A stretch of 11,612 bases of DNA from positions 1-11,612 of the forward strand of contig JACRKM010000130.1 in assembly GCA_016219765.1 (NCBI GenBank), given 5' to 3'. How positions within the stretch are numbered: position 1 is the first letter of the stretch; the number at the start of each line of letters is the position of its first letter. The translations under genes and the position numbers were made by a program. This DNA is from Candidatus Woesearchaeota archaeon (GTDB lineage Archaea > Nanobdellota > Nanobdellia > Woesearchaeales > UBA11576). This document shows positions 1-8,847 of the stretch, in pieces. Below the pieces are notes generated by a model. That model made no database searches, was not told the origin of the DNA, and was given only the letters and a program-made list of their open reading frames with translations.

Positions 1-3000
1 AAGATCCCTATTCCACAATTTTACTTCGTCTATTGTGCCATTCCAGAAACGTATAGTTCCCAGGCTGCCAAAGTCAATGACGGTGACGGAACCATTCGCG
101 TTTGAATTGAGATTATTAGAAGCGACTTGAGTTCCATTAACGTAGAGAACTACATGAGTACTATTCCATGTCCCGGCTATGAACGTCCAGTCACCATAAT
201 GTCCATTAGACAAAAGATCAACCGTCGCCGTACCATTACCAACTTTCAAATCATATACATTAGTACCTCCATTGTAAAAAAGACTAAGACCGCCGGCACT
301 GGTGCTGCGAATGTTTGCGATGAAGCATAAGTTTCCTGATTGACCGGTACAATTAACAGGCTTAACCCACGCAGCAAAAGTCCCAGTATTATTTATCGTA
401 TCAAACACCGTCGATGACCAAGGCAATGTTATTCTATCATTAAATCCATCAAACTGGTACGCGCCCCGCCCATCAAAACCTCCAGTCCTATTCCACACCG
501 CACCACCAAAGACCGTGCCGTTGTTTCTGAAGCCGGAGTAATCAATGCTTGCGTTTTGTTCATTCTGCGAACCGTTGCCACCCCACGCCTCAAAAGGCAT
601 GTTGAGTACAGCAATGCTTGAGCCATTCAAACGCCAATTAACAATATTCTTCACCACATCACCATCAACATCAACAGTAGACACATTATAAACAGTAATA
701 TTCTCAGAACTCAAGTTCGTGCCTAGCGTTGAATTAATCACCGGCGTTCCTTGTGTTGGTGCAGTACTAAGAACCGTCAAATTCGTGCTGCATGACTCTG
801 CGCCGTTAGTGAAGCCGTCGTTCGGCGTGATGCACGCGCTCCAATTCTCACCACGCAAAGTCTCGTTCCAAACAATTAAATCTGTGCGGTTCTCGAACAA
901 TGCTCTAATCTGGAACATCGACAATGACCGATTATAGATACGAACATCGTCGATACTTCCATTAAAGTACGCCGCCGCATCTTTTCCTATCGTGAATGGA
1001 CCCCAACTAGAAATAGAAGACAACTTTAAGCTCGCTTGCGATGTTAACGCACCGTTAACATACATTTTCATGCTATTAGTATTAGTAGTCCCATCCCACG
1101 TAAAAGCAATATGCTTCCAAACATTCAAACCAAGAGCTGCGGAATTAGTACTGTTACCCCCAACAGCCCACTCACTATAACAATATACAATATTATTTGC
1201 GGTGTAGGCTGTACACTGATAACCCCTACTTATACCCGTTCCAACAAGCCCGGGTTCGCCCACTACTTTTCTCGCAAACATCCAGAAAGTAACAGTAAAC
1301 GCTTTCGTAATGTTTATGCTTGCAGATTTACTCGCAGCGATATAATCATTCACACCATCAAAATTGTATGTTCCTCTTCCGTCAAAGCCTCCGGTTCTAT
1401 TCCACACTGCACCGCCAAAGACAGTGCCATTGTTCCCGAAGCCAGAGTAATCCATTGAGACATTGTTCTCGTTCTGCGTCCCGTTCGAGCCCCACGCCTC
1501 AAAAGGCATATTCAGAACAGCAAAACTTGAGCCGTTAAGGCGCCAGTCGACAATGTTCTTTACTATATCACCATCAACGTCAGCAGTAGACACATTGTAA
1601 ACAGTAATATTCTCAGTAGAACGATTCAAACCAAGAGTAGAATTAACCACCGGCGTCCCATGCGTCGGAATAGTATTGATGGCGATAGAATCAGATGCGT
1701 TCAGCGGCTCGAAATTCCTTCCTTCACAAGACACATTCCATGACACATTGCCTCCGGCACTGAACGTGCGATTGTAGAAAAACACATTAAACGCAGCCGA
1801 CCAGCTCATATTAAACGGACCGCTTGGAGAAACATTGAAAGCAATCGTACAATTACTCGCATTCGTCGGCTGATCAATCGGCGCACCATTCGTCACATTC
1901 GTATAATTCGCAGTGAAATTCACAAGCAAACTAACAAACACCAGCTTCGAGCCGCCCTGCGAATCATTGCTATCGTAAATCGACAAATTCGAATTAACAC
2001 TCACAGAGAAATTACTGAACCCTGATACATTGAATGAAATATTGCCGCCATCGCCAAAGAATGTTATGTTGCACGTTGTTCCAAGACAGATCGATCCATT
2101 GCGGCGCACCACAGGAACCTTCGAGAGAGAAACATTACGCAATGTCACATTCGCAGAAGAATTAAACGACTCGTGCAAGCCTCCGCCAAGTGTACTTACG
2201 TTCACGTTAACGGAACCTTTGCCAAGCGTTATGTTCCCATTGATAAACATGCCTGAGACATTCACCGCCTGGCTGCCCCAGCGGATGATGCCGTACGTAA
2301 CGTTATCCAAAACAAGATTCGTTACTGCAGTCAGGTCAGCAACGTTATCGAAGTCCGTAGATGCCCCGGCAAATGAGCTGGATCGCGGCAGCGTGCCTGT
2401 CTGCGCAGCCCTGATCGTCAGATTCGCCGAACATTTCTCCTGACCATTCACAAAGCCATCGTTTGGAGTGATGCACGCGCTCCAGTTTTGGCCAACAGCG
2501 AGCTCTTGGCTAACGATCAAATCCGTTCGATTGTTATACAACGCAAGAATCTCCGCATTTGACAACGAACGATTGTAAATCCGCACATCATCAACAAGCC
2601 CATTAATATTATAGGTGTTGCTCCTACCTCTGCCGATCTCCAGGGGACCGGTTGTGGAGGTAACTGGGTCTGCCCGAGCCGTAGCGGTCCCTTCAACTCC
2701 ATTCACGAAGACTACAATGTGTGTTCCATTGTACCTTCCAACGATATGATTCCAGTTCGTTACATTGAGTTCTTTACCAGCAGTGACTGTGTAGGTGCTA
2801 ATGAAAAAGTTCACTTCTGTCGCGTTGTTATAAAATATTCCATACCCATCAGTCCATGCCCCACTAGTTGACTTCATCAGAATTACATCATAAAGGCTAG
2901 GAGCTACGAGATTGCGCGTCCATAATGAAATCGTCATGTTATAAGTTATAAGATCGATATTGGGTGCGTTTGGAATGCTAATGTAATCATCAACACCATC

Positions 3001-4716
3001 AAACAAGTACGCACCACGCCCATCGAATCCTCCAGTCCTATTCCACAGTGCGCCACCGATCACCGTGCCATTCGTCTTGAAGGCCGAATAGTCTATGGAA
3101 GCGTCGTTCTCGTTATGCGTTCCGTTCGAGCCCCACGCTTCAAACGGCATATTCAACACCGCGAAACTTGAGCCGTTAAGGCGCCAGTCGACGATATTCT
3201 TCACCACATCACCATCAACATCAACGGTAGATGTGTTGTAAACAGTAATATTCTCAGAAGTTCGATTCGTGCCTAACGTCGAATTAATCGCTGGCGTCCC
3301 CTGCGTCGGAATAGAATTGATGGCGATAGAATCAGATGCATTCAGCGGCTCGAACTTCCTTCCTTCACAAGACACATTCCATGACACATTGCCTCCGGCA
3401 CTGAACGTGCGATTGTAGAAAAACACATTAAACGCGGCCGACCAGCTCATATTAAACGGACCACTCGGAGAAACATTGAAAGAAATCGTACAATTGCTAT
3501 TATTCGTAGGCTGATCGATCGGCAGGCCGCTCGTCACGTTCGTATAATTCGCAGTGAAATTCACAAGCAAACTGACAAAGACCACACGCGAACCGCCCTC
3601 TGAATCATTAAAGTCATAAATCGACAAGTTCGCATTAGACTTCGTGGAGAAATTACTGAATCCGGAAACATTAAATGTCAATACTCCGTTTTCATAGCTT
3701 GTAATGTTGCAGAACGGCGACAGGCAGATGCCTCCATTCTTGAGAACAACCGGCGTAAATGCGTATGGTAAACTCTTGATTTGCAGTTCGCTTGCATGAT
3801 TAAACACAGCACATTCCGGAGTTTCCTTAAGCCCTACAAGATTGGATTCTACAACAACACACGCATCCACTCCAGATATATCATCCACTTCGCTTTCTCT
3901 AAACTTAATCTTGCCAAGGCTGTTCTCCACAGAACGCGCTGCAGCATTAATGACTGGCGTCATGTTGAATGGCGCTTGAGCCTGCACAGGCAGTATCATG
4001 ACAGGCACAGCGGATTTTTGTGAAACGTTCTGAGTCGCGTTTTGTGATTCATTGAGTGTTGCATTTGATTCATTGAGCGTAGTATTGAGTTCTGCAACAG
4101 GGGCTCGCGCTGGTTCTTCTGGCGGCACCTTCTTCGTTTGATTTTTCGTTTTATTTGCTTCAGAACCGGGTGCTTCAACCGGCTCTTCCAGAGACTCGTT
4201 CTCTTGCAACTGCCCAATCTCGTATATGTTCTGCACAAGATTGCCGATAAAGCTTGACTTACCATGATCCGTTGCTCCAGCAATCGTCTTTAAGCCATAC
4301 GTGAATCCCTGTACGAAGCAGTCCTTGATCACAACATTTACATGGCCATCGTTCAGGATTCCGGTGCCATTGCCTGACCCTGCAATCGTCGCGCCGCTGC
4401 AGTCGACAGTCACGTTATCGGACGCGATGACAATTGCAGCGCTCTCAGGTGCAACGTCATACGCGTACAAGCCAGCATCAAGCACTACACTCTCATTCAC
4501 ATAATAAGTGTTCAATGTATCAAGTGTTACTGCGCCAGTTGGAGAGTGCAGACCAGCAAACATGCCCGGATAGAAAAGCGCCACAAGAAGTGCAAACAAC
4601 GCGAGCAACGCGGAGGGTAAGATTATGTTCCTTGGGCGCATTCTTCCAGCTGGCGCGGGTGCTGGCGCAGGGTTGAACAGCACATTCGCCTTCCAAGCTT
4701 CGGTTGCGCGCATCAT
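1..4716 (-). CDS. Giant membrane-anchored LamG-repeat surface glycoprotein (C-terminus beyond window)
   Basis: This frame is open for 1572 codons from ATG 4716 to the window edge, so the C-terminus is missing. Residues 1-30 are basic/Pro-Ala (NPAPAPAPAG). A hydrophobic segment at about 31-55 should anchor the protein with the rest outside the cell. Residues 59-168 resemble a NosD/pectate-lyase-like beta-helix fragment (NVTVDCSGATI, NVVIKDC). A charged linker rich in N-x-T/S follows (about 170-235). Two beta-rich units ending in FNVSGFSNFS lie near 280-357 and 810-905. LamG (concanavalin A-like) domains lie at about 561-716, 1107-1266 and 1411-1572; each has a FDGRG motif and ends like DDVRIYNRSLS. 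NWSACITPNDGF/CS motifs follow the first two LamG domains. N-glycosylation sequons are very dense. The start is chosen because ATGA overlaps the upstream HTH gene's stop, with a GGGGTGGGCGAG Shine-Dalgarno-like stretch just upstream; ATG 4713 is an alternative. A role in adhesion or glycan binding is inferred from LamG; the ligand is unknown. Confidence 0.9.
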   Translation of the reverse strand, partial: MMRATEAWKANVLFNPAPAPAPAGRMRPRNIILPSALLALFALLVALFYPGMFAGLHSPTGAVTLDTLNTYYVNESVVLDAGLYAYDVAPESAAIVIASDNVTVDCSGATIAGSGNGTGILNDGHVNVVIKDCFVQGFTYGLKTIAGATDHGKSSFIGNLVQNIYEIGQLQENESLEEPVEAPGSEANKTKNQTKKVPPEEPARAPVAELNTTLNESNATLNESQNATQNVSQKSAVPVMILPVQAQAPFNMTPVINAAARSVENSLGKIKFRESEVDDISGVDACVVVESNLVGLKETPECAVFNHASELQIKSLPYAFTPVVLKNGGICLSPFCNITSYENGVLTFNVSGFSNFSTKSNANLSIYDFNDSEGGSRVVFVSLLVNFTANYTNVTSGLPIDQPTNNSNCTISFNVSPSGPFNMSWSAAFNVFFYNRTFSAGGNVSWNVSCEGRKFEPLNASDSIAINSIPTQGTPAINSTLGTNRTSENITVYNTSTVDVDGDVVKNIVDWRLNGSSFAVLNMPFEAWGSNGTHNENDASIDYSAFKTNGTVIGGALWNRTGGFDGRGAYLFDGVDDYISIPNAPNIDLITYNMTISLWTRNLVAPSLYDVILMKSTSGAWTDGYGIFYNNATEVNFFISTYTVTAGKELNVTNWNHIVGRYNGTHIVVFVNGVEGTATARADPVTSTTGPLEIGRGRSNTYNINGLVDDVRIYNRSLSNAEILALYNNRTDLIVSQELAVGQNWSACITPNDGFVNGQEKCSANLTIRAAQTGTLPRSSSFAGASTDFDNVADLTAVTNLVLDNVTYGIIRWGSQAVNVSGMFINGNITLGKGSVNVNVSTLGGGLHESFNSSANVTLRNVSLSKVPVVRRNGSICLGTTCNITFFGDGGNISFNVSGFSNFSVSVNSNLSIYDSNDSQGGSKLVFVSLLVNFTANYTNVTNGAPIDQPTNASNCTIAFNVSPSGPFNMSWSAAFNVFFYNRTFSAGGNVSWNVSCEGRNFEPLNASDSIAINTIPTHGTPVVNSTLGLNRSTENITVYNVSTADVDGDIVKNIVDWRLNGSSFAVLNMPFEAWGSNGTQNENNVSMDYSGFGNNGTVFGGAVWNRTGGFDGRGTYNFDGVNDYIAASKSASINITKAFTVTFWMFARKVVGEPGLVGTGISRGYQCTAYTANNIVYCYSEWAVGGNSTNSAALGLNVWKHIAFTWDGTTNTNSMKMYVNGALTSQASLKLSSISSWGPFTIGKDAAAYFNGSIDDVRIYNRSLSMFQIRALFENRTDLIVWNETLRGENWSACITPNDGFTNGAESCSTNLTVLSTAPTQGTPVINSTLGTNLSSENITVYNVSTVDVDGDVVKNIVNWRLNGSSIAVLNMPFEAWGGNGSQNEQNASIDYSGFRNNGTVFGGAVWNRTGGFDGRGAYQFDGFNDRITLPWSSTVFDTINNTGTFAAWVKPVNCTGQSGNLCFIANIRSTSAGGLSLFYNGGTNVYDLKVGNGTATVDLLSNGHYGDWTFIAGTWNSTHVVLYVNGTQVASNNLNSNANGSVTVIDFGSLGTIRFWNGTIDEVKLWNRDL
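445..756 (-). repeat. Partial internal repeat copy C of the LamG gene
   Basis: This encodes residues 1321-1424 and matches only the second half of copies A and B (TQGTPVINSTLG through WRLNGSS, NMPFEAW and FDGRGAY). The first half of the module is absent here: the NWSACITPNDG motif runs directly into it, so the repeat order is not uniform. Confidence 0.85.
1336..2043 (-). repeat. Internal repeat copy B of the LamG gene
   Basis: This encodes residues 892-1127, the gap-free counterpart of copy A. From 1681 to about 1849 it differs from copy A at only a handful of positions, although flanking parts of the same module and the LamG domains that follow have diverged strongly. Confidence 0.9.
2977..3684 (-). 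repeat. Internal repeat copy A of the LamG gene
   Basis: This encodes residues 345-580 and aligns without gaps to copy B exactly 1641 bp away (residues 892-1127). It covers the FNVSGFSNFS end of one unit, a region with VSLLVNFTANYTNVT, and the WRLNGSSFAVLNMPFEAW unit leading into LamG 1. Part of it (about 3322-3490) is almost identical in DNA to copy B. Confidence 0.9.
4303..4536 (-). repeat. Beta-helix-domain repeat, copy in the large surface gene
   Basis: DNA encoding about residues 61-138 is close to identical, gap-free, to 7680-7913 in the small surface-protein gene (constant offset 3377). By eye roughly nine bases in ten agree, including long uninterrupted runs. The flanking DNA encoding the membrane anchors is not visibly similar. 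Confidence 0.9.
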
Positions 4717-5423
4717 GTCTTCTCGCCCACCCCCTGCTTGTGAGTCGACATTTTCTTTTGCGCACGATGATAGACTGTCCAGATGGTGCGATTGTCGCGA
4801 TGCAGTAGAACAGAGATCTGGTTCAATGAAAGATGCAATTCATCGCGCAAGTACTGCGTGATTGATTCGAGAACGCTCAGATTGCGGTTTGCGATGACGG
4901 AGAATGGCACGTTGATTTTTTCTAAGTCAACATGAGAAGCAACAGTACGCAATTTTGCAATTAAGTCGCGATCGCTTTGCAATGCTTGAATATCAAAACG
5001 GCCAGAAACTTTTTTGCTCGCAATGGAATACGTAGTCCAGATCGTTTTTGGACTGCGATTGAGCAATGCACCAATCTCAGTAATTGATTTGTTTAGTTCT
5101 TCCTTGATGTATTTGACAGTGATCTCAAGGCCGCTGAGTTTTTCTGTTGCAAAAAGAACAACCGGCAGGCCATGCTCTGCAACAGGTTCTGCAGTGGGTG
5201 ATGTCTGTTTTGGCTGAGCAGCTTCTTTGGCTGCTTCTTTAGATGGCTTTGCTGCAAGAATATCAAGAAGCTGTTGAACCGATATCTGCTGATACTTTGC
5301 GGTAAGATGATCAGAAACAATCTGCGCAATTTCATCCTTGATTTTCTCTGCATCAAGAGGAGGGCTGGAGCTAGCTCTATCGCTTACTCTATCTATGCTT
5401 TGCTGCCTTCCTCTTTTTCTCAA
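4713..5423 (-). CDS. Tandem helix-turn-helix DNA-binding protein, upstream partner of the LamG gene
   Basis: A 236-residue soluble protein with no membrane segment. A basic N-terminus and an acidic/Ala-Lys stretch (about 24-80) precede two copies of a ~54-residue module at about 86-139 and 172-225. Each module ends in a sigma-region-4-like helix-turn-helix (ITEIGALLNRSPKTIWTTY and LNQISVLLHRDNRTIWTVY) followed by a basic helix. One chain therefore carries two similar DNA-binding units. The start is TTG 5423, directly after an in-frame TAG, with GGCGTGAG just upstream; no ATG is available until the C-terminus. Its TGA stop overlaps the LamG gene start (ATGA), implying one mRNA and coupled translation. 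A paralogue at 8117-8656 has the same partner arrangement. Local transcriptional regulation is inferred. I do not recognise a named family beyond sigma-70-region-4-like HTH. Confidence 0.85.
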   Translation of the reverse strand: MRKRGRQQSIDRVSDRASSSPPLDAEKIKDEIAQIVSDHLTAKYQQISVQQLLDILAAKPSKEAAKEAAQPKQTSPTAEPVAEHGLPVVLFATEKLSGLEITVKYIKEELNKSITEIGALLNRSPKTIWTTYSIASKKVSGRFDIQALQSDRDLIAKLRTVASHVDLEKINVPFSVIANRNLSVLESITQYLRDELHLSLNQISVLLHRDNRTIWTVYHRAQKKMSTHKQGVGEKT

Positions 5424-5472
5424 CTACTCACGCCATTCAATAGACAACCAATCCCACTCTGTAAGTAGTTTC

Positions 5473-5482
5473 GTTTATAAAG
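5473..5482 (-). promoter_or_regulatory. TATA box for the HTH-LamG unit
   Basis: Read on the minus strand this is CTTTATAAAC, a good archaeal TATA box about 50 bp upstream of TTG 5423, predicting a start near 5448 and a short leader. A second candidate, CTATAAAATA (5540-5549), lies further upstream. Confidence 0.55.
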
Positions 5483-5678
5483 ATTTCTATTTTGTAAGAT
5501 TTCTTCCCTTGATGAGAGAAATTTATTAACCACCTATCTTATTTTATAGGAAGTATTACTTACATTTAAAGAAGAGTATGGGCAGGAATCCTCTTTTGAA
5601 GGCATTTATTTAAAAAAGAATCCCATCATGTACTATTCTATTTGTAATAAATAGAAGCCGCATTTCCGTCATTCTTTC

Positions 5679-5739
5679 ATTTCAATTTGGGTTTGATGCC
5701 CCGCAGCTCTGCTGCGGTTTGAACCACCCAAATTGAAAT
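5679..5739. repeat. Nested foldback element 1
   Basis: A perfect 14-bp outer stem (ATTTCAATTTGGGT 5679-5692 with 5726-5739) and a perfect 7-bp inner stem (CCGCAGC 5701-5707 with GCTGCGG 5711-5717) closing a TCT triloop. The two are separated by symmetrical 8-nt internal loops. It lies between divergent genes, so it is not the terminator of either. Confidence 0.85.
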
Positions 5740-5741
5740 TC

Positions 5742-5826
5742 GAAATTGCCGGTCGCGAAGCGAAAAAAGTCGCGTAATACACCGGGGCTCTGCCCCGGCC
5801 GGGATAGTGACTTTTTAGGCAATTTC
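5742..5826. repeat. Nested foldback element 2
   Basis: It starts three bases after element 1. The outer stem is GAAATTGCC 5742-5750 with 5818-5826 (9 bp, perfect), the middle stem AAAAAGTC 5764-5771 with 5809-5816 (8 bp, perfect), and the core stem CCGGGGC 5782-5788 with 5792-5798 (7 bp, perfect), again closing a TCT triloop. A small side hairpin TCGC-GAA-GCGA sits at 5753-5763. Confidence 0.85.
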
Positions 5827-5857
5827 TTTATTTGTAATACTACATTCCCAAAACGCG

Positions 5858-5886
5858 TATTATAATACTAAATCAGCATTACAATA
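5858..5886. promoter_or_regulatory. Imperfect palindrome, operator-like, first copy
   Basis: TATTATAATAC (5858-5868) and GCATTACAATA (5876-5886) form an inverted repeat matching at 9 of 11 positions around a 7-nt spacer. A related sequence (22 of 30 positions over 5861-5890) occurs exactly 90 bp downstream at 5951-5980. Confidence 0.5.
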
Positions 5887-5891
5887 CACAC

Positions 5892-5903
5892 AAAATATAT
5901 AAG
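5892..5903 (+). promoter_or_regulatory. Upstream TATA-like element for the ATPase gene
   Basis: AAAATATATAAG resembles an archaeal TATA box and begins just after the first palindrome. It could give a longer leader for the ATPase mRNA or be background of an A+T-rich stretch. Confidence 0.35.
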
Positions 5904-5941
5904 TCTTTGTGCTGTTGTCGTAATTTTAGACTATAATAAAG

Positions 5942-5953
5942 TTTATATATTTT
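5942..5953 (+). promoter_or_regulatory. Main TATA box for the ATPase gene
   Basis: TTTATATATTTT is a near-consensus archaeal TATA box. It predicts a start at about 5968-5975, inside the second palindrome copy (5951-5980), a position where a bound protein would block transcription. GAGGGT (5991-5996) is a plausible ribosome-binding site seven bases before ATG 6004. Confidence 0.6.
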
Positions 5954-5980
5954 AATACTAAATATACATTATAATATATG
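5951..5980. promoter_or_regulatory. Operator-like repeat, second copy
   Basis: TTTAATACTAAAT followed by CATTATAATA repeats the layout of the copy at 5861-5890, exactly 90 bp away. It lies immediately after the TATA box and over the predicted transcription start of the ATPase gene. Autoregulation or control by a neighbouring HTH protein is possible but unproven. Confidence 0.45.
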
Positions 5981-6003
5981 AAAGTTGAAAGAGGGTATTA
6001 CAA

Positions 6004-7317
6004 ATGACTGCAACTTTTACTGAAAAATCTCTTTCTAATATTTGGGAGATATATGGATTAATTTCAGACCCCTTTTATGTTGGCCCTATTCTTGTATTCG
6101 GCGGAAACCTGCCTAGATCCACTTTTATTGGAAGAAATAAGGAGAAAAAAAGATTGTTGGCTATTTTGAGGTCTCGTGGAGGGTCGAGAATATTAGTTTC
6201 GGGAGAACCTGGAGTCGGTAAAACTAGTTTTGTAAATGTAGTAAGATCGGAAGCTCTGGATGCTGGTTTTTTTACGCCTATGAAAGAAATAGGAGTCCAA
6301 CCCGAGTGGGAAGCAAATGATTTTATTCTAAATACATTATTTGCTATTTATAACACGCTCGTTCGCCAGAGTAAAGAAGAAGTTCTATCGAAAAATTTAT
6401 TCTTAGAACTTCAAAAATTAGTAACTTCTGTTAACATTAGTAGTTATTCGGGTTCAATATCTGTTGCGGGTTATGGGGTTGGCGGTTCTAAAAATGATGT
6501 ACCGAATGTGCAACAGATAACGACATCATACCTTCTGGATATATTTGAGAGAATTATTTTAGATTTAACTAGTAAAGAAAGTTTTTCAGAAGTAATAATA
6601 CATTATAACAATTTAGAAAATTTCAAGTCTGATGAACTGGCGCTTCTTTTTAAAAGAATAAGAGATTTCATTCTCACAGAAAAGGTACACTTTATTTTTG
6701 TTGGAGATTTAACTGTTCCACCAATTATTCAATCGGTTCCGAGAGCCCAATCTATTTTTAGTGATACTCCAATAATATTGGAAAGTTTATCTTTTGAAGA
6801 AACTCTACAAATCTTAGAAAAACGCGTTGAAACACTTAAAATACCTGGTTTAACGCACGTTACACCATATACTGTGGATGCGGTGAAATTATTATATGAT
6901 TTGTACAATGGCAACATTCGCTATATTCTTAATAGTTTATCAACGGCGATAAGAGAATTATCAACTGAACGGCCAATAATTCTAGACAATGAAATAATCT
7001 CCAATATTCTTTCTAAAGTTGCAGAAGACAGATGGTTATCAAAACTAAGCCATTGGGAAAAAGAAATTTTGGGAAGTATGTTAAATAAAAAAGAAATGAG
7101 TAACAAAGAACTCTCTCAGAAACTTCATAAAAAACCACAGAATATATCGAAAGCGCTAAAGAAACTCCAAGAAATCTCATCAATATATTTAAACAGAACA
7201 GAAGGAACGAGTAAACTTTATGCTGTGCATCCTTCAGTTAAATGGTTCCTGTTATCCAATAAAACAAAAAATAAGATTGACGATGAGAACTTGCTAAAAT
7301 ATTTTGTATTTATTTAG
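6004..7317 (+). CDS. AAA+ ATPase with C-terminal winged helix (Orc1/Cdc6-like architecture)
   Basis: A 437-residue soluble protein. An N-terminal YGLISDPF motif (17-24) and FIGRNKEKKRLL (41-52) precede a Walker A P-loop GEPGVGKTS (67-75). A glycine-rich insertion SVAGYGVGGSK lies at 153-163. The Walker B position is VIIHYNNLE (197-205), with Asn where Asp/Glu is usual. A sensor-1-like strand HFIFVGD (229-235) and a sensor-2-like GNIRYILNSL (303-312) follow. Residues about 344-418 form a winged-helix-like domain (MSNKELSQKLHKKPQNISKA). The order P-loop, sensors, winged helix matches Orc1/Cdc6 and related DNA-associated AAA+ proteins, but the origin-binding signatures of true Orc1/Cdc6 are not clear, so I do not call it a replication initiator. 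The gene is visibly richer in A+T than its neighbours, suggesting separate acquisition. Its cellular role is unknown. Confidence 0.85.
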   Translation: MTATFTEKSLSNIWEIYGLISDPFYVGPILVFGGNLPRSTFIGRNKEKKRLLAILRSRGGSRILVSGEPGVGKTSFVNVVRSEALDAGFFTPMKEIGVQPEWEANDFILNTLFAIYNTLVRQSKEEVLSKNLFLELQKLVTSVNISSYSGSISVAGYGVGGSKNDVPNVQQITTSYLLDIFERIILDLTSKESFSEVIIHYNNLENFKSDELALLFKRIRDFILTEKVHFIFVGDLTVPPIIQSVPRAQSIFSDTPIILESLSFEETLQILEKRVETLKIPGLTHVTPYTVDAVKLLYDLYNGNIRYILNSLSTAIRELSTERPIILDNEIISNILSKVAEDRWLSKLSHWEKEILGSMLNKKEMSNKELSQKLHKKPQNISKALKKLQEISSIYLNRTEGTSKLYAVHPSVKWFLLSNKTKNKIDDENLLKYFVFI

Positions 7318-7384
7318 CAGCCCACTTCGCGGCGCCGCTCACGACGCCCGCCATTTCCAGTCTTATTTACTTGATGTTACCTTG

Positions 7385-7390
7385 TTTTTT
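7385..7390 (+). terminator. T-run, possible ATPase terminator
   Basis: TTTTTT lies 68 bases after the ATPase stop codon in a T-rich context. Archaeal transcription often ends at such U-tracts. The evidence is only compositional. Confidence 0.35.
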
Positions 7391-7407
7391 GTGACAAATC
7401 ATTCCTG

Positions 7408-7446
7408 CGCCGCCCGACATCCCTCTGGGTACCCTGTCGTGCGGCG
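7408..7446. repeat. Hairpin in the convergent gap
   Basis: Arms CGCCGCCCGACA (7408-7419) and TGTCGTGCGGCG (7435-7446) pair with one mismatch. Inside, CCC-TCT-GGG (7421-7429) repeats in shorter form the TCT-triloop core of the 5679-5826 foldbacks. It lies between two convergent genes, so a bidirectional terminator is a simple alternative. The surrounding 7318-7577 has no gene; weak outer pairings (TTTAGC 7313-7318 with GCTAAA 7524-7529; GCGCCGC 7332-7338 with 7503-7509) suggest a larger fold. Confidence 0.7.
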
Positions 7447-7577
7447 ACTACGAAAATTAGAACATTCAACTGCACAATGCTGCATCCGCTCGCAGGCCGG
7501 TGGCGGCGCTGCAAAAGCAATGCGCTAAACAAATACGATTTTGACATTCATTCAACAATTATTCATTCTGCAACAAT

Positions 7578-8120
7578 CTACGGTTGTGCATTTATCTTGT
7601 AAACATTCTGCACAAGATTTGCAATGAAGCTTGAGGTTGCATAGTCCGTCGAATGCTCAACAGCCTTCAGGCCATACGCGAATCCCTGCACAACGCAGTC
7701 CTTGATCACAACATTTACATGGCCATCGTTCAGGATTCCAGTGCCTCTGCCAGAGCCGGCAATCGTCGCGCCGCTGCAGTCGACAGTCACATTATCGGCC
7801 GCGATGACAATTGCAGCGCTCTCGGGCGCAACGTCATATGCGTACAAGCCAGCATCAAACACAACACTCTCATTCACATAATAAGTATTCGATATATCAA
7901 GCGTCACTGCACCGCTCGGAGACCGCGGTCTGGCAAACCCGTCTGAACGGAATTGCGTCACATTGTCTGATACAATCCTGCTTGCGGCTTGTCCACCAGC
8001 GTCAGTAGTAATATGGCCCGTTAGTCTTGCACCAAGCAAGATGAGAGTGCTGCTGAGAGCTACCGCCACCAGCACTATTATCAATACCTGAACGTTCAGC
8101 GCGCGTTTACTTCTTTTCAT
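7578..8120 (-). CDS. Short membrane-anchored exoprotein with a single beta-helix-type domain
   Basis: 180 residues. A basic tail MKRSKRALN is followed by a strongly hydrophobic segment (about 10-31), predicting a single anchor with the C-terminus outside. A linker leads to residues 69-178, which match residues 58-168 of the large surface protein almost throughout (YYVNESVV, NVTVDCSGATIAGSG, GTGILNDGHVNVVIKDC, SSFIANLVQN). The similarity ends at YKINAQP and a stop, just where the large protein continues into its linker and LamG modules. It is thus either a minimal ancestral form or a copy that lost its C-terminal modules; the frame is intact, so I call it a gene, not a pseudogene. ATG 8120 overlaps the TGA of the upstream HTH gene (ATGA), and GGGGTTG lies about 15 bases before the start. 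No enzymatic residues are recognisable. Confidence 0.8.
   Translation of the reverse strand: MKRSKRALNVQVLIIVLVAVALSSTLILLGARLTGHITTDAGGQAASRIVSDNVTQFRSDGFARPRSPSGAVTLDISNTYYVNESVVFDAGLYAYDVAPESAAIVIAADNVTVDCSGATIAGSGRGTGILNDGHVNVVIKDCVVQGFAYGLKAVEHSTDYATSSFIANLVQNVYKINAQP
7680..7913 (-). repeat. Beta-helix-domain repeat, copy in the short surface gene
   Basis: Gap-free, near-identical DNA counterpart of 4303-4536. The high identity at nucleotide level, silent positions included, indicates a recent duplication or continuing exchange between the two loci. Confidence 0.9.
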
Positions 8121-8656
8121 TCTTGCTGTTCAACCCCTTTTTGTTGCGAGCGCTCTTTTTCAATGGCGCGTTTATGCACCGTCGCGATCGAGGCAGGATT
8201 TTTGTGAAGCAATACAGCAATTTTTGAGTTCGAAAACTTGTGAACAGCCCCAAGATAGGAAACAACATGTTCGAGAACGCTCTTAGTGCGTTCAGAGAAA
8301 AGAAAAACCGGAAGGAAGATGCCGGTTGAGATATCAATGACGAATGGCTCTTTTGATTTTCGTAAAGCGCGCTGATAACTCGTCCACACGCTGCGATCAT
8401 CCCGCTTCAGAATGACCGCGATCTCGTGATATGTTAAGCTGCGATTCTCTTTGAGGTACTTACACAGGCTTTCAGAAGGGCTCAGTTCATGAGAGAAAAT
8501 AGAAAGCGGAATGACCTCCTTTTGGGACCCTGTTTCTGTTTCATTGTAAAGGCCGACTATCTCTGCAAGGGAAAGCCCTTGCCGTGACTTCATGAATGAG
8601 ATTATACTCTTTAGCAGTTCAAACGAATCATTGCGGCTTTGTATTGGCGGCTGCAT
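8117..8656 (-). CDS. Tandem helix-turn-helix DNA-binding protein, upstream partner of the short exoprotein
   Basis: 179 residues, soluble, basic C-terminus. Two modules lie at about 49-101 and 114-165, each with a hydrophobic lead (LSIFSHELSPSES, PVFLFSERTKSVLE) and a helix-turn-helix (HEIAVILKRDDRSVWTSYQRA; SKIAVLLHKNPASIATVHKRA). The first keeps the Arg-Asp-x-Arg-x-x-Trp-Thr signature of the paralogue at 4713-5423; the second has lost the Trp. An extra N-terminal helical part (about 11-38) may correspond to residues 27-55 of that paralogue. ATG 8656 is the only start: the frame upstream reaches TAA 8702-8704 with no start codon. The stop overlaps the next gene by ATGA, implying coupled translation. 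A role as specific regulator is inferred from the repeated pairing; its targets are unknown. Confidence 0.82.
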   Translation of the reverse strand: MQPPIQSRNDSFELLKSIISFMKSRQGLSLAEIVGLYNETETGSQKEVIPLSIFSHELSPSESLCKYLKENRSLTYHEIAVILKRDDRSVWTSYQRALRKSKEPFVIDISTGIFLPVFLFSERTKSVLEHVVSYLGAVHKFSNSKIAVLLHKNPASIATVHKRAIEKERSQQKGVEQQE

Positions 8657-8731: not shown

Positions 8732-8847
8732 ATACTCCTTCTATTTAAAATCTTCCATTTCTTACTTCTTTTGTATATTTCAATACCTCCTATACTTTCT
8801 TTTTACTTTGTTTGTATAAACGGATGCGAAACATGTTCAGACTACAT

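Follow-up and report, generated by a model that had tools for sequence, protein, structure and literature searches.

Two-module HTH proteins as probable autoregulators of the candidate surface-protein genes paired with them in Woesearchaeota

What are two DNA-binding proteins doing directly in front of two membrane-anchored proteins, each pair joined by a four-base overlap, in one archaeal neighborhood? The Woesearchaeota and Pacearchaeota, both groups of tiny archaea, occur widely, and most of them have never been cultured. The window, by which we mean the whole stretch of 11,612 nucleotides analyzed from Candidatus Woesearchaeota contig JACRKM010000130.1, carries both pairs on its minus strand (Table 1), and a sequence-only reading had proposed that they are paralogous cassettes of one design, a protein with two sigma-region-4-like helix-turn-helix (HTH) modules followed by an anchored protein with a beta-helix-type domain, and that they form a dedicated regulator/exoprotein system. 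The description is confirmed, with some corrections. All four open reading frames and both ATGA overlaps are present, P0001 and P0002 are homologous (32% over 149 aa, E 8e-16) with two HTH modules each, and a simple hydropathy scan finds one membrane anchor in each of P0003 and P0004. The likeness to sigma region 4 also stands: Sigma70_r4_2 is the top Pfam family for P0001 and P0002, at 21.4 and 22.6 bits against a cut-off of 25.7, and although these two scores are sub-cut-off, 75 of 83 family members match it at E<=1e-3. Close similarity is confined to the exoprotein module (81% amino acid identity over 115 aa and 83% nucleotide identity over 349 nt between P0003 and P0004). The HTH genes fall, by eye, into different classes, and blastn gives only a 21-nt match between them. 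The beta-helix fold is putative, Pfam giving no match for P0003 at E<=1. P0004 is chiefly a LamG protein, with three PF13385 stretches (E 3.7e-58) and 103 N-glycosylation sequons. No further copies of the P0003/P0004-type modules were found in the window's own genome, the only one searched for them.

Table 1. Coordinates of the two cassettes and their promoter elements within the window
Feature	Position	Strand	Remarks
HTH regulator P0001, two modules	4713..5423	-	236 aa, TTG start; among the 83 aligned family members
P0001 HTH module 1	5010..5165	-	core RSPKTIWTTY, diverged; hand-computed from alignment
P0001 HTH module 2	4749..4907	-	core RDNRTIWTVY; hand-computed from alignment
ATGA, P0001 stop/P0004 start overlap	4713..4716	-	from ORFs
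Exoprotein P0004	1..4716	-	1572 aa, open-ended at the contig edge; single anchor
P0004 membrane anchor, aa 31-49	4570..4626	-	hydropathy
P0004 LamG (PF13385), best of three stretches, aa 573-723	2548..3000	-	Pfam
P0004 module common with P0003, aa 53-167	4216..4560	-	81% identical
Operator-like site ACTACTTACAGAGTGGGATTG	5449..5469	-	downstream of P0001 TATA box; 6.5 bits, weak
TATA box TTTATAAA, P0001 operon	5474..5481	-	
Operator-like site AAATCTTACAAAATAGAAATC	5482..5502	-	upstream of P0001 TATA box; 7.5 bits, weak
HTH regulator P0002, two modules	8117..8656	-	179 aa
P0002 HTH module 1	8357..8512	-	core RDDRSVWTSY, canonical; hand-computed
P0002 HTH module 2	8156..8314	-	core KNPASIATVH, diverged; hand-computed
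ATGA, P0002 stop/P0003 start overlap	8117..8120	-	from ORFs
Short exoprotein P0003	7578..8120	-	180 aa; anchor and shared module
P0003 membrane anchor, aa 12-30	8031..8087	-	hydropathy
P0003 module common with P0004, aa 62-176	7593..7937	-	
TATA-like box TTTAAATA, upstream of P0002	8742..8749	-	
Class-variant operator TACAAAAGAAGTA (predicted)	8763..8775	-	
Class-variant operator TACAAACAAAGTA (predicted)	8804..8816	-	41 bp from TACAAAAGAAGTA, about 4 helical turns

The HTH family was found in 156 of the 371 genomes sampled from the phylum, with as many as eight copies in one genome. At E<=1e-3 the 83 aligned members match 23 Pfam families between them; neither sigma-70 region 2 nor an Lrp ligand-binding family is in this set, and an HTH_AsnC-type domain is matched by only two members. 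With region 2 missing, we dropped the possibility of a true sigma factor. A search of solved structures returned three weak matches, the best of them a sigma-H factor (E 0.0082). A viral or mobile origin was likewise dropped, as viral_contigs contained no relative by the A3 patterns and matches of the HTH proteins to PHROGs were weak (best E 0.0028); the broad alignment, A2, is too poorly conserved for such collection scans.

Homologues of the HTH genes do not lie mostly beside unrelated genes. A coupled, singly anchored exoprotein gene comes next after 84 of 103 HTH genes (106 less three with no visible downstream gene; L094, itself a fused gene, is scored as a match through its next gene), compared with 63 of 397 background genes (Fisher p 2.9e-36), which bears out the proposal of a dedicated system. 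Judged by adjacency and anchor, the co-oriented single-pass membrane partner typical of SigI/RsgI systems is thus found in this same majority. Within the window's own GTDB family the arrangement is seen in 19 of 20 HTH genes, one of the 19 pairs being known only from 59 residues before a contig end, and across the relatives an in-frame ATG overlaps the HTH gene in 80 of 102 same-strand neighbors (summed offsets). The observation holds far beyond the window. Exceptions are followed by an RsmC-like methyltransferase (L034/L010, L109), a GTPase (L037) or a multi-spanning protein (L045, L077). Gene starts and neighbors were taken from a simple gene caller made for the analysis, which missed 10 of 79 HTH loci; checked apart, eight of these have the exoprotein pairing and L077 and L109 lack it. 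The HTH gene was also missed in L007, L120 and L140. An outside binding domain is partly represented among the partners, with LamG in P0004 and L062 and none in P0003 or the other eight exoproteins scanned. A TG[FYLMHWQ] motif behind the anchor, present in 47 of 86 partners, was rejected as a system-specific signal because other anchored proteins have it too (20 of 70 in a control that still contained repeats of partner exoproteins).

HTH promoters share a predicted 17-bp operator, TACTTACATAATAAGTA, with helical-turn spacing and often flanking the TATA box, and the binding of HTH proteins to these upstream regions that had been predicted from the letters gains in silico support from this shared element. 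The core TACTTAC occurs in 36 of 76 HTH upstreams and in 4 of 222 controls. A five-fold held-out matrix reaches at least 10 bits in 56 of 77 HTH upstreams, compared with 9 of 252 controls and 9 of 385 dinucleotide shuffles, the last of which allow for the AT bias of the HTH upstreams (25.6 vs 32.4% GC); this operator set excludes HTH genes of <125 aa or >=400 aa and those with <60 nt upstream. Among later-collected HTH genes all 13 that could be scored were positive (40 genes minus 23 already used, then minus 4 of 17 with too little upstream sequence), six of them overlapping the ten fused operons discussed below (L174, L175, L177, L178, L179, L181). Overall, 26 of 101 distinct HTH genes have no site at the scan threshold, some for want of upstream sequence. 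In the genomes searched, the strongest sites are those at the family's own promoters: all four matches with 0-1 mismatch among eight whole genomes lie upstream of an HTH gene, as do seven of eight matches to a class variant, TACATAANNAGTA, upstream of the matching HTH gene in G004-G007. The HTH-carrying genomes G219, G022 and G263 contain no 0-1-mismatch match, and matches with two mismatches (28) are no commoner than those to the reversed pattern (41). Spacing between sites peaks at 21, 31-32, 41-43 and 52-53 bp, a period of 10.5-10.75 bp (Rayleigh p about 2e-21, n=89). Helically phased predicted operators are found at the TATA box of the regulator's own gene, as in a TATA-proximal autoregulator, and for this HTH family operators can be predicted from sequence. 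The window leans on its relatives here because the sites of P0001 score so low (Table 1); AAATCTTACAAAATAGAAATC, 33 bp from ACTACTTACAGAGTGGGATTG, is the top minus-strand matrix score within the window.

The HTH modules seem to read one half-site apiece, as changes in the recognition helix accompany changes in the half-site. Among promoters with sites, module 1 covaries with the right half (rho 0.37) and module 2 with the left half (0.49), while the cross terms are negative (n=68). Arginine in module 1 goes with G13 (p 6e-6) and arginine in module 2 with C9 (p 0.012), and the crossed controls give p 0.54 and 0.24. Single-module relatives have nearly perfect palindromes as operators, with 6.5 of 7 symmetric pairs (6 genes) vs 4.5 (69 genes; p 2e-4). 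These covariation, Arg/base and symmetry tests are tree-free. On the tree an Asn/Thr position changes four times, so that the covariation reflects few evolutionary events, and in its tree test one crossed control is significant (p 0.04) and another nearly so (p 0.09). A strict Asn/Thr rule for the left half, although strong in counts, was rejected: the position has changed independently only a few times, and 2 of 11 out-of-sample genes break the rule (p 0.06). The module/half-site rule makes testable predictions.

We consider it probable that the cassettes are self-contained surface-protein operons, each autoregulated through a dedicated regulator. The first gene would give rise to a DNA-binding protein with two sigma-region-4-like HTH modules, a single molecule of which would span the 17-bp pseudo-palindrome (TACTTACATAATAAGTA or one of its variants), with the left half read by module 2 and the right half by module 1, while single-module relatives would bind true palindromes as dimers. 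Placed on one helix face, often on either side of the operon's own TATA box and commonly 1-6 bp downstream of it, the bound protein should prevent recruitment of RNA polymerase, and the regulator is therefore most likely an autorepressor. P. furiosus LrpA, which binds to its own control region immediately downstream of the TATA box, blocking RNA polymerase (PMC2995911), is cited here as a precedent for such TATA-proximal autorepression. The autorepressor would then set the expression of a translationally coupled, membrane-anchored, sequon-rich exoprotein, itself putatively glycosylated and displayed at the surface. Recognition helices would have diverged among paralogues along with their operators, and each surface protein would therefore have a private switch.

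The exoprotein may in turn feed back on its regulator, as fusions between the two suggest. Pacearchaeota-type genomes encode giant exoproteins of 1099-3455 aa that carry the same HTH pair, fused on, at their end; fusions were counted at 13 distinct loci (eleven plus L095 and L069). L054 and L094 repeat two of the eleven and are uncounted, and a 2202-aa fusion in G112 (L183) was kept out of the count because the stretch past its HTH reads N. Sites of the same kind precede 8 of 10 fused operons, in a scan that leaves out L180, whose start is missing from the contig; in L177, which has both a fused HTH and a separate overlapping HTH gene, the site precedes the separate gene. Fused and unfused exoproteins alike can have a cytosolic N-terminal domain of about 95 aa (A5), which Pfam assigned to no consistent family. 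Whether exoproteins mostly occur without the HTH gene was followed for the A5 type only: among 30 such loci, the HTH gene lies immediately upstream in 16, five are HTH-fused, L226 is an interrupted relative of the fused form, L241 and L242 have a different small HTH-like gene overlapping, and six have neither.

These loci give some weight to the idea that the exoprotein is also a receptor whose cytosolic domain or covalent link holds or releases the HTH protein, such that the state of the cell surface governs operon transcription much as in a sigma/anti-sigma pair or a transmembrane transcription regulator. We offer this tentatively, with doubt outweighing confidence; it is compatible with the autoregulated operon, as an added step and no alternative. 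The HTH phylogeny tracks exoprotein type (22 changes vs a minimum of 32 in 200 shuffles), and RsgI provides a precedent (PMC4711584). However, in many exoproteins, P0003 included, the cytosolic stub is shorter than 20 residues and could not accommodate an anti-sigma-like domain, and on this ground a universal anti-sigma-like stub was dropped; a search for RsgI-type anti-sigma domains gave no Pfam match at E<=0.01 in 20 A5 stubs. The second membrane crossing in fused proteins is also weak: a hydrophobic stretch near the fused HTH reaches the threshold used in 5 of the 11 proteins, and the same strand also forms the end of several unfused relatives. It is conceivable, if somewhat doubtful, that these are archaeal surface receptors, some of more than 3000 residues, each controlling its own operon through a sigma-like two-module partner or tail with a private, readable operator code.

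Promoter placement bears on the direction of control, and argues for repression over the unlikely reading that the HTH proteins are activators, with a site upstream of the TATA box recruiting TBP/TFB. Sites lie within 25 bp upstream of the TATA box in 31 of the 64 promoters with sites, where they could serve activation and so count against a repressor, and Ss-LrpB is described as alternating positive and negative autoregulation (PMC2995911). In 33 of the 64, however, a site lies within 30 bp downstream, at 1-6 bp in 30 of these, and protein bound there should hinder RNA polymerase. Both sides have sites in 24 of 64, four have no site near the TATA box and 20 have no TATA box by the score used, TATA positions that overlap a site being excluded. 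The HTH proteins are thus probably autoregulators, and probably repressors.

It is very improbable that membrane-tied HTH proteins serve as a DNA anchor, keeping the locus at the envelope while the giant protein is inserted during synthesis: fusions do put a DNA-binding domain on a membrane protein and the strongest sites are near the gene itself, but the sites are phased and clustered around the TATA box. A neighborhood effect of common surface genes and frequent overlaps in these genomes, for which the background rate is indeed above zero (63/397), is negligible against the Fisher test, the fusions and the shared operator.

Our literature search found no description of such HTH/exoprotein operons, and one of the nearest parallels is bacterial. 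In Clostridium thermocellum, SigI is a DNA-binding factor with a sigma-type HTH, co-transcribed with RsgI, a membrane protein whose outside part is carbohydrate-binding or lectin-like; there are several paralogous pairs per genome, and they are autoregulated (PMC4711584). The archaeal cassettes resemble them in pairing a sigma-type HTH factor with a membrane exoprotein, in paralogous pairs and in autoregulation, the last predicted on the archaeal side. They differ in that the archaeal factor carries a pair of region-4-like modules and matches no sigma region 2, that its sites are predicted operators around the TATA box, that no RsgI domain is matched in the 20 stubs, and that regulator and exoprotein can be fused. 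The fused forms, which in related loci combine the HTH with an N-terminal anchor on one polypeptide, link a DNA-binding domain with a membrane protein whose outside part is large, as do transmembrane transcription regulators (PMC10269533, the main text of which does not contain the words DPANN, Woesearch- or Nanoarch-). Unlike these, they reach 1099-3455 aa with an extra cytosolic N-terminal region and an uncertain second crossing, and the window's own genes are unfused. The fusions nonetheless point to membrane-based regulation. LrpA offers the likeness of binding, here predicted, at its own promoter next to the TATA box, and Lrp-type sites also lie on one helix face, with a spacing of two or three turns (PMC2995911). 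Our HTH regulators belong to a different protein family from LrpA and Ss-LrpB. We know of no dedicated surface protein or fusion in the LrpA/Ss-LrpB system. Surface proteins of Woesearchaeota and Pacearchaeota, by comparison, seem each to have a private switch, an HTH protein co-made with or fused to them that controls its own promoter.

Sigma-like proteins (fam00359) are reported as prevalent in Woesearchaeota, their control as unclear and an anti-sigma factor as not found (PMC8204110). Our HTH family may be this 'sigma-70' family, both being sigma-like and woesearchaeal, an identity that we suppose. If so, fam00359 proteins resemble operator-binding regulators that have two modules and a membrane partner, and not sigma factors, which would give a concrete reading to that published open point. 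Closer to the window, the class to which P0002 belongs, assigned by eye, is found in 7 of 10 genomes of the same GTDB family.

In relatives of the window's cassettes, the pairing of an HTH gene with a gene for a membrane-anchored exoprotein is a rule. HTH relatives occur in 8 of the 10 genomes of the window's GTDB family, where a singly anchored exoprotein comes next after 19 of 20 distinct HTH genes. With 79 further loci from genome_contigs and 30 from the order, the set grew to 106 distinct HTH genes. Most relatives found by sequence in genome_contigs bear the name Woesearchaeota, Nanoarchaeota or Pacearchaeota; a few records carry no more than 'archaeon', 'bacterium', 'Euryarchaeota' or 'DPANN group'. 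Among the 103 HTH genes with a visible neighbour, that neighbour is on the same strand in 102 and coupled (-90 to +50 nt, longest start taken) in 94. The pairing with an anchored exoprotein proposed in the sequence-only reading is borne out, as such a partner is coupled in 84 of 103 cases vs 63 of 397 background genes from the 79 genome_contigs loci. The arrangement was also present in 8 of 10 genome_contigs loci, checked separately, whose HTH gene the gene caller had lost. The proposed retention of a 4-base overlap stands for both window pairs, which share ATGA, and does not extend to all relatives: among 102, the first ATG of the next gene most often lies at -4 (38), -11 (14), -14 (9), -8 (8) or -17 (6).

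Several of the 19 exceptions are near-misses, with another reading frame ahead of the exoprotein (loci L080 and L107) or two successive HTH genes before it (L101), and at L054, L069 and L095 the HTH is fused. In the real exceptions the adjoining gene encodes an RsmC-like methyltransferase at L034, a GTPase at L037 and a multi-spanning protein at L045. Among sampled genomes, HTH relatives were detected in 122 of 193 from the order (E<=1e-5) and in 156 of 371 from the phylum (E<=1e-8).

The window is the entire contig C99 of its 1.09-Mb, 81% complete genome (G000). Its two regulators, P0001 and P0002, are distant paralogues (32% over 149 aa), and their exoprotein partners have a 115-aa module in common at 81% identity. 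Because DNA likeness is high in this module (83% over 349 nt) and only 21 nt are common to the two HTH genes by blastn, the exoprotein module was probably copied or homogenised more recently than the regulators. The long exoprotein P0004 carries three LamG stretches and 103 sequons. In G008, the other genome of the window's genus, only the first 59 codons of the exoprotein gene in the P0002-class pair are present, the contig (L012, G008:C71) ending ahead of the shared module; repeats may break assemblies at such genes and leave exoproteins under-sampled.

Features of the window, with predicted operators and repeats
Feature	Position	Strand	Remarks
P0004, exoprotein (open)	1-4716	minus	ATGA common with P0001
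P0001, HTH regulator	4713-5423	minus	ATGA common with P0004
P0001 predicted operators			pair of weak sites (7.5 and 6.5 bits) flanking TATA box 5474-5481 at 33-bp spacing
Best family-operator match	5555-5575	plus	14.1 bits, between P0001 and P0005
27-nt inverted repeat	5666-5692 and 5726-5752		78% complementary; intergenic P0001/P0005; GC-rich sequence near
29-nt direct repeat	5858-5886 and 5948-5976		2 copies, 83% alike, 90 bp apart, just upstream of P0005
P0005, AAA ATPase with winged-helix-like end	6004-7317	plus	between the two cassettes
P0003, exoprotein	7578-8120	minus	ATGA common with P0002
P0002, HTH regulator	8117-8656	minus	ATGA common with P0003
TACAAANNAAGTA class-variant predicted operators	8763-8775 and 8804-8816		upstream of P0002, 41 bp apart
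P0006, topoisomerase I gene			beyond the two cassettes

HTH-gene promoters share a pseudo-palindromic motif, a predicted operator. In model-free counts, TACTTAC occurs in 36 of 76 HTH upstreams vs 4 of 222 control upstreams from the 79 genome_contigs loci, and TACATAAT in 20 of 76 vs none of the 222. With a 21-position matrix (consensus AATACTTACATAATAAGTATT) under five-fold hold-out, sites of at least 10 bits were found in 56 of 77 HTH upstreams vs 9 of 252 controls and 9 of 385 dinucleotide shuffles; by their indices, seven of the nine control matches belong to genes directly adjoining an HTH gene. A site was also present at each of the 13 scorable HTH genes that were added later. Gaps between consecutive sites are mostly about 21, 31-32, 41-43 or 52-53 bp, a period of 10.5-10.75 bp (Rayleigh p about 2e-21, n=89). 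Across 64 promoters with sites, these lie on both sides of the TATA box in 24, downstream only in 9, upstream only in 7 and on neither side in 4; no TATA box was found in 20.

Across eight whole genomes, ACTTACATAATAAGTA with at most one mismatch has four matches, all in front of an HTH gene (two in G209, one each in G223 and G019). At two mismatches there are 28, not commoner than the reversed pattern (41), six of them in the same promoter regions. The whole-genome search found no strong ACTTACATAATAAGTA site in G219, G022 or G263, where HTH genes are present. The P0002-class variant TACATAANNAGTA was searched in six genomes: seven of eight exact matches in G004-G007 are upstream of a P0002-class gene, the three in G023 equal its control count, and no exact match occurs in the window's own genome, where the sites read TACAAANNAAGTA. 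Within the window, four class-variant sites were found with one mismatch allowed, vs 0.27 expected. The P0001 sites keep their left halves and have degenerate right halves, as predicted from the diverged first HTH module of P0001.

This prediction comes from a correspondence between modules and half-sites. Across 68 genes, canonicity of module 1 correlates with the right half (rho 0.37, p 0.0017) and that of module 2 with the left (rho 0.49, p 2.6e-5), and the crossed terms are negative (-0.28, -0.11). An Arg in module 1 goes with G13 (11/14 with Arg vs 3/33 without, p 6e-6) and one in module 2 with C9 (34/42 vs 0/3, p 0.012), with crossed controls at p 0.54 and 0.24. Asn for Thr in module 2 goes with A for T at position 6 (8/8 vs 3/41, p 3.7e-7), and His after the module 1 Trp with a pyrimidine at position 16 (p 0.003), on a tree with only 4 and 3 protein changes, respectively, too few for a pairwise test. 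The three crossed controls for these two rules gave p 1.0 (clean), 0.09 (near) and 0.04 (significant); out of sample, 9 of 11 obeyed the Asn/Thr rule (p 0.06). The complete genome G019 encodes a single-module HTH protein whose stop overlaps the exoprotein start. The six of nine single-module genes that have sites score 6.5 of 7 symmetric pairs vs 4.5 in 69 genes with more modules (p 2e-4), and such near-perfect palindromes are what is predicted if each module reads one half-site.

In the reverse direction, the cytosolic N-terminal domain of the exoproteins (alignment A5) was matched in 73 of 279 genomes. For this exoprotein type the refuting pattern, exoproteins mostly without the HTH gene, was not seen: at 30 loci examined the gene is directly upstream in 16, and 5 are among the fused forms described below. 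One locus, L226, is an interrupted relative of the fused forms. L236 has a small gene overlapping by 4, and L235 and L239 have no HTH gene. No anchor lies near the domain in L234, L237 and L238, which are probably unrelated. By eye, L241 and L242 have a different, winged-HTH-like gene ahead of an exoprotein with a cytosolic coiled domain, overlapping at the equivalent position (-25, -4), which looks like a replacement of the regulator. HTH phylogeny tracks exoprotein type, with 22 changes vs a shuffled mean of 38 and minimum of 32 (74 genes). Of 86 partner exoproteins, 47 (L048, L044, L062 and others) have TG[FYLMHWQ] after the membrane anchor. The motif is not confined to partners, since further anchored proteins encoded in these genomes have it too, and it might serve the lineage as a signal for processing or sorting.

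The phylum search also gave HTH matches inside very long frames, and examination of these loci placed the HTH modules at the C-terminus of a giant protein in eleven (L172-L182). Ten have their start within the contig. Free of N and of internal stops, these encode 1099 to 3455 aa and run from a cytosolic N-terminal region and anchor through a sequon-bearing part to the tandem HTH. Two more fused loci, L095 and L069, come from the genome_contigs set; L183 was rejected as a twelfth fusion, as its sequence is masked. Alignment A5 unites the cytosolic domains of seven fused and 13 unfused proteins; the N-terminal region of L182 is different. At L177 a separate HTH gene overlaps, by 11 bases, the gene of an exoprotein whose own C-terminus is an HTH pair. 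Topology is the uncertain point of this reading: the hydrophobic stretch ahead of the fused HTH is short, is followed by a basic cluster and reaches threshold in 5 of 11, and the strand that precedes the fused HTH also forms the end of unfused relatives such as L046. Sites of 9 bits or more precede 8 of 10 fused operons; at L177 they lie before the separate HTH gene, and L181 has a single site (12.0 bits). By eye, L172 and L176 have repeats of CACACACCCTAG upstream in place of the usual operator, possibly the diverged operator of their sub-lineage. At the ten loci with visible sequence (L172-L177, L179-L182) the next gene encodes a 303-350-aa anchored exoprotein, after a short opposite ORF at L174, and at nine this is followed by a gene for a 170-193-aa protein that has hydrophobic segments at both ends, an order that suggests a larger surface complex.

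We propose that the autoregulator would sit along one helix face around its own TATA box. Repression would be the likelier sign given the precedent of P. furiosus LrpA, which is reported to bind just downstream of its own gene's TATA box and exclude RNAP (PMC2995911). Production of the coupled exoprotein would probably keep pace with that of its regulator. An influence of the surface protein on its regulator, much like that of RsgI on SigI (PMC4711584), is suggested by the fusions and by the shared cytosolic domain; the short cytosolic stubs and uncertain topology call for caution here.

A literature search outside subscription journals and preprints returned no recognisable account of the pairing, the operator or the fusion. 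The nearest accounts are of sigma-70-like proteins, prevalent in Woesearchaeota but lacking anti-sigma factors (PMC8204110), of LamG proteins from a different DPANN group with a possible role in adhesion (PMC7414124), of an archaeal LuxR-type HTH census that includes a Woesearchaeota record (PMC5413776), and of a survey of transmembrane transcription regulators (PMC10269533). The parts, an autoregulator and transmembrane or sigma/anti-sigma-like control, are familiar in principle; we rate as not familiar the system as a whole, the readable code and the giant fusions.

Three further features lie between P0001 and P0005: the best family-operator match of the window, the inverted repeat, and the direct repeat, which is perhaps P0005's own operator.
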